From a virus: a DNA stretch of 31,834 nt. The notes under the pieces were generated by a model. That model saw nothing but the letters and a program-made list of their open reading frames with translations. It was not told the origin of the DNA and did not search any database. A program made the position numbers and the translations under genes. Location: positions 1 to 31,834 of IMG/VR virus record IMGVR_UViG_3300027983_000069; one strand, written 5' to 3'. Positions 24,206-31,372 of the stretch are shown here, one piece after another; positions within the stretch are counted from its first letter, which is position 1, and every line of letters starts with the position of its first letter.

Positions 24206-26905
24206 TTATTTTAAATTTTTAAAAGCACTTCTTGATGTTTTTACTTCTCCTTTGTAAACAGCTTTACCTAAATGTCTAAAAGGACTGTTGTTTAATTTAA
24301 ACAAATTTTGTGACTTTTGCAAATTTTTAGCTGAATCGTCCATAATAATTCGTTTAGCATATCCCCTATTAGATTGCTGTATTTTTACAAAAGCTACTAA
24401 TGCACAAAAAGCAACAAGTCTATCTACATTGACTCCATCAGCATATTCTCGCATTTCTTTAAGTAACATAGGGTCAGGTATTCTTTCTATACCGTAGGTA
24501 ACTTTTACAATAGTACCATCAGGTTTTGTTTTTACATCTAATTCTTCTTTAGTGTATTCAATAGCATAATTAAGAAGATGTTGTTTAAATAAAGTACCTG
24601 TATTTTTCCAACCATATTCTTGAAATACATTAGCATTCACATTAAGTTCTTTTAAAAACATAATTTGACTTTTCGGAACTAAATATTTTTGTTTTTTCCT
24701 TGAAATCATGTGTTGTATAAATAAGGAAATGTTATTTTCAATAACTGTCCATGCATTATACCATTCTATAATTAGTTCTAATCTTTGATGTGTTTTATTT
24801 AAATCATCAAACCTACCACACCATGCAGCTACTATTTTATCCGGTTCTATATACGTTTCTGTTTCTGTACCTGTTACTTTAGTAACTTCTACAGAAGTTT
24901 TCATTACATATATTGAACATAAGGATTCACTGGTTACGCTTTTTCCTTCAGAAACAGGATCTATAGAAGCATAGTATTGACCAAAACTAGGGTCTTTAAC
25001 AGGTCTTTCCCATACTACTAAACAACCTGTTTTATCTTCTGTTTTTTTAGAAATAGGAAATTCTTTTATTGGTTGTTTATTAGATTGTTTTACAGAAACT
25101 TGTCCTTTTTCATCAGTAGATATATCTAAAAGTTCATAAGAATATTCTTTTTCTTCAATTCTTCTTTCTTGAGCTGTAACTAAATGTATAGGAAACTTAC
25201 AGATTGTTCTATATGCAAAAGCTTCTTCAATATTTCTGGGATGTTGAGAAATTTCTAATTGATAAAGCTCTGGTGACATATCTTTTTTACAATCTATAAA
25301 ATAAGATTCTAAGTATTTTAAAGCTTTTTCTACTAAACTGTTTCCATAAAGATCTATACAAGGAGGCATTGACCATTGTTCTGGAATAAATAAACCTGTT
25401 TTTCCAATAGTACCTTTTTTATCTAATAAATTAGTTTCTACTTTATAGATAGAACTTGCTGCTGGATTTATAATCATATCCTTTAAAGGTCCACATTGTG
25501 ATAAATCTCCTACTGATCCGGCTGCTATAAACATCCCTGTAGTAATCATACCTGATTTTAAAGCTGGTTTCATATACCCAAAAGTTTGATCCATTTTAGG
25601 AGCAATACCTGCTTCTTCATGGAAAAAATATTTTACTGGTCCACCAACTCCTGATGTAGGATCTTTCTCAAAAGACATTCCTTGAATAGTACCTTTAAGT
25701 CCAACATCTGTTTTTCTATCTCCTTTTCTTACTTCAATTTTTTGTTGCCACATTAATATTTTATCTGGTGACATAGGTCTATGCCAAGCAGTATGTTCAT
25801 TAAGAAAAGAAGCATATTCTGATAAAAATTTCCAAGAACCTTTTTCATTAATATAATCTTTAAGACTAGCCCCCATTTTAAGAGTAACTCCTTCTTCAAA
25901 CCAAAGTTGATTAACTAACTTACCTATATGGAAATAAGAATTATGAGTAACAATAAAATCTTTTGTTATGTATAAATGATTGGGATTATCTACTACTATA
26001 CAAGAAGATTCTTCTAAATAATCTAATTTTGTAATTGAAACTAGTACATTTAAAAAATCTCTTTTTTCAAAACAACCTTTTTTTGCACCAATTTTTCTAT
26101 TTTCTAAAATAAAAGCATTTAATAAATCTAATTTAAATCTTTGATGTATTGTACTATCTTGCTCGTAAGTTAATCCAATTTCTAATAATTGTTTTGTATT
26201 AAGTATTTTAATTAACTGTATTTTTTCATCATATACTTCCCAATTATGTTCTATACCGCATCTAGTAGATCTACCATCTCCAAATTTAAATTCATATACA
26301 TCAGATAAACCATTATTTGTTTTATGTAAAATAGTTGTTAAAGTACCATCTGGATTCCAAAGTTTATCTCCTGGTTGAATTTCACCCATAGTTTTCCATC
26401 CGGTTTCAGCTAAAACTGGTTCAGAATGAGGTTGTTCACTAGCTATCTGCCTCTTTTTAAGTATAGCGACATGTTCATAATTAAGTTCAGCTAACATTTC
26501 ATACAATGCCATGTGATATTGAGCATCTCTAATTTTAGCAAAATCAAAAGATTGTTGTTCTTTATCAAAAATAGGTAAAAAGTTTAACCACATATAGTAG
26601 TCCCTACTTAAATACCATTTTTTACCATTATTAATAAAGAATACTCCTTTTCTACATTTAAGTTTTTGATCATCCCAATATGTTATAAAATCTTTAGATC
26701 TATAAGGAGCTATACAATATACTTTTTGATTTCTATATTTTATGGCTTCTGCATTAAAAACAATAGTTGTTTCATCAAATAAGTATTCTCCTGGTATTTT
26801 AAACAATGTTTTTATTTCTTCAAATAATTCTGTTCTAGAATTAAAATTAATTGTTGTCCAAACCCCATTATCCCAACAAGGAATGTTTTGATATATTTCT
26901 TTCAT
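24206..26905 (-). CDS. terL: Large terminase subunit with an embedded mini-intein
   Basis: An 899-codon gene for the DNA-packaging motor, ATPase plus nuclease. Without the intein (about residues 157-322) the mature protein would be about 733 residues. ATPase: a degenerate Walker A, KKRQIAS (150-156) joined to SYFH (323-326) after splicing; Walker B-like KYFFHEE (425-431); coupling-type motif IAAGSVGD (460-467). Nuclease (RNase H-like): D649 in SIDP, E723 in VIENN and D828 in NVDRL, the three acidic metal-ligand positions. The aromatic N-terminal segment (KKWYLSRDYYMWLNFLP, 95-111) is typical of this family. It is preceded by a candidate small terminase gene four bases upstream and followed six bases later by the portal gene. 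The intein splits the ATP-binding loop, so the ATPase should be inactive until splicing. Confidence 0.9.
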   Translation of the reverse strand: MKEIYQNIPCWDNGVWTTINFNSRTELFEEIKTLFKIPGEYLFDETTIVFNAEAIKYRNQKVYCIAPYRSKDFITYWDDQKLKCRKGVFFINNGKKWYLSRDYYMWLNFLPIFDKEQQSFDFAKIRDAQYHMALYEMLAELNYEHVAILKKRQIASEQPHSEPVLAETGWKTMGEIQPGDKLWNPDGTLTTILHKTNNGLSDVYEFKFGDGRSTRCGIEHNWEVYDEKIQLIKILNTKQLLEIGLTYEQDSTIHQRFKLDLLNAFILENRKIGAKKGCFEKRDFLNVLVSITKLDYLEESSCIVVDNPNHLYITKDFIVTHNSYFHIGKLVNQLWFEEGVTLKMGASLKDYINEKGSWKFLSEYASFLNEHTAWHRPMSPDKILMWQQKIEVRKGDRKTDVGLKGTIQGMSFEKDPTSGVGGPVKYFFHEEAGIAPKMDQTFGYMKPALKSGMITTGMFIAAGSVGDLSQCGPLKDMIINPAASSIYKVETNLLDKKGTIGKTGLFIPEQWSMPPCIDLYGNSLVEKALKYLESYFIDCKKDMSPELYQLEISQHPRNIEEAFAYRTICKFPIHLVTAQERRIEEKEYSYELLDISTDEKGQVSVKQSNKQPIKEFPISKKTEDKTGCLVVWERPVKDPSFGQYYASIDPVSEGKSVTSESLCSIYVMKTSVEVTKVTGTETETYIEPDKIVAAWCGRFDDLNKTHQRLELIIEWYNAWTVIENNISLFIQHMISRKKQKYLVPKSQIMFLKELNVNANVFQEYGWKNTGTLFKQHLLNYAIEYTKEELDVKTKPDGTIVKVTYGIERIPDPMLLKEMREYADGVNVDRLVAFCALVAFVKIQQSNRGYAKRIIMDDSAKNLQKSQNLFKLNNSPFRHLGKAVYKGEVKTSRSAFKNLK
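25940..26437 (-). other. Class 3-type mini-intein inside TerL
   Basis: An in-frame protein splicing element of about 166 residues, TerL residues 157-322; the N-terminal edge may shift by one or two residues. Block A: VLAETGWKTMGEIQPGD (164-180). The first residue is Glu or Gln, not Cys, Ser or Ala. Block B: CGIEHNW (216-222), with His220 and Trp222. Block F: SCIVVDNPNHLYI (301-313), with Cys302 at the usual Asp place. Block G: VTHN (319-322), then Ser323 as +1. Trp222, Cys302 and Thr320 form the WCT triad that defines class 3 inteins, in which the block F Cys starts splicing. No LAGLIDADG or HNH homing nuclease is present. Removing it joins KKRQIAS to SYFH, restoring the ATPase loop. Confidence 0.88.
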
Positions 26906-30435: not shown

Positions 30436-30900
30436 TTAATTAGCTATTTCAAAATGCATAAAATCAAAATTCTTTTCACGTCCTAAAGAAAGAAATCCGT
30501 GTTTATAAAAAATATCAATCATTTGTTTATATTCAGGTCTTGCAAATCTAGCTGTCTTTGCAGTTTCTTTCATTTTGTTTCTTGCAGGATCTAAATCAAC
30601 TGCAACTGCCCAAGAGTGTCTTGAATAGTCACTTCCTCCTCTCATTTGTCTAAAATTAAAACACCCTCCGAATAAGTCTATTCCTAATTCTTGAATTTTA
30701 TCAAGTCCATATACTTCTAAAATTTCTTTAAAAACTGCTGTGAATTTATCTGCTACTTTACTATGACATCTCATTTTTGTTACAGTAGTTTTTAAATCCC
30801 AAGCTAATTTCATTGGATAAGGCAAAGTAATCATTACTAAACTATTCCCTTCTTGACTTGGTTTACCATACTTTGCTATTAGTTGTTTTGTTGTTATCAT
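30436..30900 (-). CDS. M15-type peptidase endolysin
   Basis: A 154-residue peptidoglycan peptidase. It has the M15 (VanY/DD-peptidase, L-Ala-D-Glu endopeptidase) zinc motif [20 protein letters not shown] (88-107), giving Ser93, His95 and Asp102, and the second motif NFDFMHFE (144-151), giving Asp146, His149 and Glu151. These supply the zinc ligands and catalytic acid. There is no signal peptide, so export would depend on the holin encoded 10 bases upstream. The likely role is cutting cell wall cross-links at the end of infection. It lies inside a compact cassette of spanin-like, holin and endolysin genes. Length is typical of single-domain phage M15 endolysins; no separate wall-binding domain is present. 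Confidence 0.9.
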
Positions 30901-30910
30901 GTTTAAATTT

Positions 30911-31372
30911 TTATAATAATTGATCTTTTTGTTTTTTAATATATTTAGCTAAATTAAGAACTCTTTTGAAAAGATGCCATAATCCATATCCGCTTACATT
31001 ATTTATTTTTTCATCTATAGAATAAATTTCATTAAGTATTAATGATATAACAGTTAATTTAGTAATAACTAATGGAATAGATATTACTAATAAAAAAAAT
31101 TCTCCTAATAAATTAATATCCAATATATAAGATGTAATTATTAATAGATTATAAGTTAATGCTTTAGAAATAAATCTTGATAATCCATTACTTGATAAAG
31201 GCATGTTAGTTCGTTTAGCAGCCCAAACACCAAAACATGTGTCTAAGAATATAAAAAACCCTACTAAAAGAATAAATATTTTAAGAGGTGATATTAAAGA
31301 TATCCCTATTAATGCATATTTAAAAAATGTTGATTTTAATGAGATTAAAATTGAAATTAATTCTTGCATCAT
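30911..31372 (-). CDS. Holin (phage holin/toxin-secretion type)
   Basis: A 153-residue membrane protein. Hydrophobic segments lie at about 17-46 (two short helices or one hairpin), 71-85 and 91-113. Between them is [17 protein letters not shown] (40-56) and [14 protein letters not shown] (59-72), the conserved cytoplasmic loop pattern D-x-x-x-G-x-x-x-A ... SS-x-G ... K of the phage holin family that includes TcdE-like proteins. The C-terminus is basic ([14 protein letters not shown]). It probably makes pores in the inner membrane and releases the M15 endolysin, encoded 10 bases downstream. Two adjacent ATGs (31372, 31369) are possible starts. The spanin-like gene stops seven bases upstream. 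Confidence 0.82.

Follow-up and report, generated by a model that had tools for sequence, protein, structure and literature searches.

An insert with the sequence signature of a class 3 mini-intein in the large terminase subunit of a crAss-like phage

The gene for the large terminase subunit (TerL) of a crAss-like phage carries an in-frame insert at the position of the ATP-binding loop, which raises the question of what the insert is, how it came to be there and whether an intact terminase could still be made. The stretch of DNA analyzed, hereafter the window, spans positions 1-31,834 of the IMG/VR record IMGVR_UViG_3300027983_000069 (31,834 nt) and is a fragment. A second IMG/VR record, 3300007722_000275 (L081/L236), holds the same DNA, with all 60-mers taken every 500 bases matching, and the two records may come from one sample. 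The TerL gene is one uninterrupted frame encoding 899 aa (Table 1) that matches the terminase large subunit family PHROG 6681 (E 8e-58), the single TerL match within this 31.8-kb fragment; it shows 26% identity with the TerL of cr1_1, with 55% of the length covered. Pfam and NCBIfam searches gave no match to the TerL frame or to the insert, and a TerL profile had no match in the PDB at E 0.1. The preliminary description had assigned the DNA to a crAss-like phage, which is borne out by the Pfam families encoded near TerL (crAss_MUZ, CrAss_Ring_1, CrAss_Ring_2 and Crass_capsid); with crAss-type capsid, muzzle and ring proteins besides TerL, the window belongs to Crassvirales. Elsewhere in the window, neighbouring Peptidase_M15_4 (endolysin-like, 30436-30900) and Phage_holin_4_1 (30911-31372) genes are likely a lysis pair.

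Table 1. Features of the interrupted TerL gene, in window positions (A1, alignment of 12 phage inteins; arrow, insertion site)
Feature	Positions	Strand	Basis
TerL precursor frame (large terminase subunit, crAss-like), 899 aa	24206..26905	-	Open frame; PHROG 6681
N-extein, residues 1-156, ends ...KKRQIAS	26438..26905	-	Alignment with TerLs that lack an intein; empty site KRQIAS↓SY
Class 3 mini-intein, residues 157-322 (E157...N322), 166 aa	25940..26437	-	Empty-site comparison; phmmer to class 3 DnaB inteins; predicted HINT fold
C-extein, residues 323-899, starts SYFHIGK	24209..25939	-	Aligns without gaps to TerLs lacking an intein
H220, block B His (B:10)	26246..26248	-	Invariant in A1; equivalent to His65 of MchDnaB1 (PMC7664689)
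W222, WCT Trp (B:12), in EHNW	26240..26242	-	Invariant in A1
Linker of about 42 aa, at the place of the LAGLIDADG endonuclease of relatives	26045..26170	-	Low model confidence; 357-aa full-length relatives
C302, predicted first nucleophile (F:4)	26000..26002	-	Invariant in A1; aligned with block-F Cys of 6rix/6bs8
T320, WCT Thr (G:5)	25946..25948	-	Invariant in A1, THN motif
H321-N322, penultimate His and terminal Asn	25940..25945	-	Sequence; invariant in A1
S323, Ser+1, predicted second nucleophile, also the Ser of the P-loop in mature TerL	25937..25939	-	P-loop column common to DAC15, csAssE-Sib, crAss001 and cr1_1

The boundaries of the insert were set by comparison with intein-free relatives fetched from IMG/VR, which were sampled by closeness to the window. 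All 78 relatives with a readable site show the empty site KRQIAS↓SY[FY]H, and the window TerL without residues 157-322 (733 aa) aligns without gaps to two intein-free TerLs, with 82% identity to L001 and 81% to L002. The in-frame insert of 166 aa thus lies exactly where the preliminary description had placed it, and its removal restores a continuous alignment, as had been expected there. A scan of IMG/VR with exact patterns yielded 7 intein junctions versus at least 120 empty sites.

Class 3 inteins are defined by the WCT set, a block-B His, a terminal His-Asn and the +1 residue (PMC5222942; PMC7664689). Position 1 of the insert, as set by the empty-site comparison, is Glu157, which is not a Cys, Ser or Thr nucleophile. 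W222, C302, T320, H220, H321 and N322 occupy invariant columns among the 12 phage inteins aligned, and the first three fall at B:12, F:4 and G:5 also when aligned to solved class 3 DnaB inteins. The +1 residue is S323, where class 3 inteins have Ser or Thr. The insert agrees with the class 3 definition in every feature that can be read from its residues, and the WCT set without a position-1 nucleophile that had been claimed earlier is indeed present. In a phmmer search against the PDB, class 3 DnaB inteins came out on top (6rix, the M. chimaera DnaB1 intein, E = 2e-9; 6bs8, 3.6e-9), and a profile of the intein matched the PDB class 3 DnaB inteins with E 1.4e-23. The AF2 model of the intein has a confident core, with block means mostly at pLDDT about 80-95, and a low-confidence stretch at intein residues 92-131 (mostly under 50). 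The best Foldseek match of this model is 6riy (E = 1.2e-8), with the class 3 intein 6bs8 within the top ten; VIA gives Z 17.1 over 123 residues at 1.8 A with 6bs8, and other HINT proteins are among the matches. The model thus predicts a HINT fold, and intein classes are told apart by residues, not by fold alone. A chance match to inteins is excluded by the phmmer hit to 6rix together with the Foldseek hit to 6riy.

As for the insertion site, three MAFFT modes place S323 in one column with the Ser/Thr of the P-loop in DAC15 (GAGK↓S), csAssE-Sib (RFGK↓T), crAss001 and cr1_1. The insert therefore sits at a site of the TerL1-a type, between the position of the P-loop Lys and the following Ser/Thr, as in the mycobacteriophage TerL1-a intein, which lies in the P-loop between Lys and Thr (Kelley et al. 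2016, PMC5050341), although the window clade has Ser in place of the Lys. In fact, the Walker A lysine is missing at its usual position in all 78 readable relatives (L001-L080), which have KRQIASS versus xGK[S/T] in other terminases. The earlier claim that the insert interrupts the Walker A region thus holds for the homologous P-loop position but not for a canonical Walker A motif (KRQIAS↓S, not xGK↓S/T), and, because the clade is without the canonical lysine, "Walker A" here denotes a homologous, deviant P-loop position. AF2 modelling of a TerL without an intein gave a mean pLDDT of 43, too poor to check this placement.

At the identical codon, L082-L085, L237 and L246 carry full-length inteins of 357-366 aa, versus 166 aa in the window, and L088 has a partial one. 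LAGLIDADG_3 (Pfam) was detected in both full-length relatives scanned, L085 and L237, whereas the same scan found no LAGLIDADG in the window intein, so that the absence of a homing nuclease noted in the preliminary description is upheld by both the 166-aa size and the Pfam result. The window is the sole mini-intein among the same-codon carriers with a fully readable intein. Moreover, a class 3 intein of 354 aa lies at the same alignment column in L097, a divergent crAss-like TerL; a scan of genome contigs for TerL-type inteins confirmed no relative. The splicing domain of the window intein is 74-83% identical with those of L237, L085 and L082. Across its 124 codons, dN/dS between the mini-intein and the full-length alleles is 0.11-0.18, averaged over both lineages and rough because dS reaches about 1 or more in every comparison; this indicates purifying selection between the alleles and fits continued selection for splicing. 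A search for an endonuclease remnant in the linker of about 42 aa found none, with local alignments no better than shuffles (p 0.15-0.93). As no similarity between linker and endonuclease reaches significance, the deletion event leaves no visible trace, and we infer the endonuclease loss, rather than a later gain in the relatives, from the full-length alleles.

It is also evident that the intein and its host gene show different relationships. The window TerL extein is 82% identical with that of the intein-free L001 versus 67% with that of L082, whereas the splicing domain of the window intein is 83% identical with that of L082. A single clade of intein carriers is rejected in the TerL tree (AU p = 0.003). 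The intein tree joins the window with L082 and L085 (support 83/82), and the alternative grouping of the window with L237 has AU p = 0.18. These results give a modest signal that suggests horizontal transfer of the intein; an older intein may instead have been lost repeatedly. Similarly, the codons AAG(-6) and AGT(-1) are common to the window, L082 and L085 but occur in 0/78 and 1/78 empty sites and are not found in L237, a pattern noted post hoc that is only suggestive of co-conversion of the flanks. An attempt to date a recent transfer was uninformative, with dS about 1 or above in intein and extein alike.

The absence of the endonuclease, the full-length relatives at the same codon and the low dN/dS together make a class 3 intein that has lost its endonuclease and still splices the most likely explanation, and we consider it highly probable that the insert derives in this way from a mobile full-length ancestor and excises from TerL to give the 733-aa product. 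By analogy with the class 3 inteins studied, TerL would be translated as an 899-residue precursor whose P-loop is interrupted by the mini-intein; C302, aided by H220 and T320, would attack the S156-E157 peptide bond to form a block-F branched intermediate, from which the N-extein would be transferred to Ser323. Cyclisation of Asn322 would then free the 166-aa intein, and an acyl shift would link S156 to S323, giving an uninterrupted TerL with its ATP-binding loop rebuilt. The ancestor would have been a mobile intein with a LAGLIDADG endonuclease at this codon, of the kind that remains in sister phages. TerL is essential in tailed phages, and we propose that the mini-intein is retained because this packaging motor would be disabled if splicing failed or the element were removed inaccurately.

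Other readings of the insert were also weighed. A serine directly precedes E157, and class 1 inteins may start with Ser (PMC5222942), so that Ser156 could be residue 1 of a class 1 intein and the spliced TerL would read KRQIA-SYFH. Such splicing would remove one P-loop residue found in 78 of 78 intein-free relatives, and it is on the length of the empty site that this start was rejected; moreover, the insert has the full WCT set, with a Cys in block F. The related L097 has Met just before its insert, so this position is not conserved as part of the intein, and a class 1 intein is hence highly improbable. If, on the other hand, the insert were a native part of the ATPase fold and not an intein, intein-free homologues should carry it; they were searched for it, and it is absent from all 78 readable ones. 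With a HINT fold predicted and endonucleases borne by same-site relatives, the probability of a native element is close to nil.

Two further possibilities accept the intein but not its ordinary splicing. Mini-inteins can decay, and the class 3 intein Arth_1007 of Arthrobacter has been reported as a pseudogene (PMC3196547), so that the window TerL might be cut at one or both junctions or left unspliced, with packaging served by another product. The catalytic residues are all intact, however, the splicing domain is conserved relative to the full-length alleles, the frame is open, and the fragment holds no second TerL match for an essential protein; a dead or cleavage-only intein is thus very unlikely. 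Alternatively, the intein may splice slowly until a late or stress cue arrives, which would put a post-translational gate on packaging. The endonuclease is gone, so a selfish benefit of mobility no longer explains the presence of the intein, and its P-loop position with the P-loop Ser as Ser+1 matches that of M. smegmatis DnaBi1 (PMC6195587). The intein has two other cysteines; however, L237 has Ala in place of C60, and C122 is part of the unconserved linker. The intein is missing from most sister phages, and the rarity of precise excision suffices to keep a mini-intein. The one observation that points to splicing-gated packaging here is the position of the insert. Regulated splicing is therefore unlikely, and slightly more doubtful still is its specific form, in which the endonuclease-less intein has been retained because it acts as a post-translational timer or sensor, holding back assembly of the packaging ATPase until a late or redox cue arrives.

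The preliminary description regarded a class 3 mini-intein at this site in a crAss-like phage as unusual, which does not agree with the comparisons. TerL is typically intein-containing in Delta crAss-like phages (Yutin et al. 2021, PMC7886860), and mycobacteriophage TerL1-c, -d and -e are class 3 (PMC5050341). Direct reading of the TerL inteins of the cultured DAC15, of cr111_1 and of csAssE-Sib showed class 3 signatures; DAC15 and csAssE-Sib, like L097, have them at the same P-loop column as the window, and cr111_1 has its class 3 intein 2 residues upstream. The WCT class 3 type is likewise found at the TerL P-loop of DAC15/DAC17 (Steigviridae). The inteins of these cultured or named phages are distant in sequence from that of the window, with DAC15, csAssE-Sib and cr111_1 outside the group of the window, L082, L085 and L237 in the intein tree, and, as a further difference, DAC15/DAC17, csAssE-Sib and cr111_1 are gut or sewage phages. 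DAC15 bears a LAGLIDADG domain but the window intein none, and the csAssE-Sib intein of 241 aa has no Pfam LAGLIDADG match. The mycobacteriophage TerL1 inteins share the terminase host with the window, but they belong to other phages, the class 3 ones lie at other sites, and several have endonucleases and proven splicing. Oxidation reversibly inhibits the splicing of M. smegmatis DnaBi1 (PMC6195587), which resembles the window intein in being a class 3 mini-intein that lacks an endonuclease, sits in a P-loop and has the Ser of that loop at +1. However, the host protein of DnaBi1 and of M. chimaera DnaB1 (6bs8, 6rix) is the DnaB helicase and not TerL, and splicing and redox response were shown there. 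As the closest functional model, DnaBi1 makes regulation of the window intein conceivable through its oxidation response. A search of the open-licence literature found no paper that names crAss-like TerL inteins class 3. The window intein is thus a further member of a class 3 TerL-intein family already present in this and other phage groups.

Related inteins were also seen in other proteins. Inteins of the same class 3 family with endonuclease lie in P-loops (GK↓) in L098-L104, L106-L108 and L089-L090, in phage proteins named by eye as DnaB-like, PhoH-like or helicase-like; L103 in this range stands apart, its host protein being named by eye as GroEL-like. This chaperonin on a phage contig (L103, 2725-5358; also in L105) is an unusual host for such a WCT class 3-type, LAGLIDADG-bearing intein, with the site SGDG↓...VTHN↓TSTS. 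In L086, an ATPase-like gene with a related intein is apparently split over two frames (705-1028 and 1032-2969), possibly by a frameshift or an assembly error. RefSeq labels the intein-bearing TerL of DAC15 (L112, H122, NC_055832.1) "DarB-like antirestriction", a name it also gives to several further phage proteins with inteins, and this label is probably a misannotation caused by the intein.

In crAss-like phages the TerL P-loop is a recurrent site of class 3 inteins, which otherwise confuse terminase annotation. This locus offers a clean natural pair, the mini-intein of the window and the mobile full-length forms that sister phages carry at the very same codon, surrounded by many empty alleles; the pair is useful for studying endonuclease loss in phage class 3 inteins and whether an intein without endonuclease is maintained.
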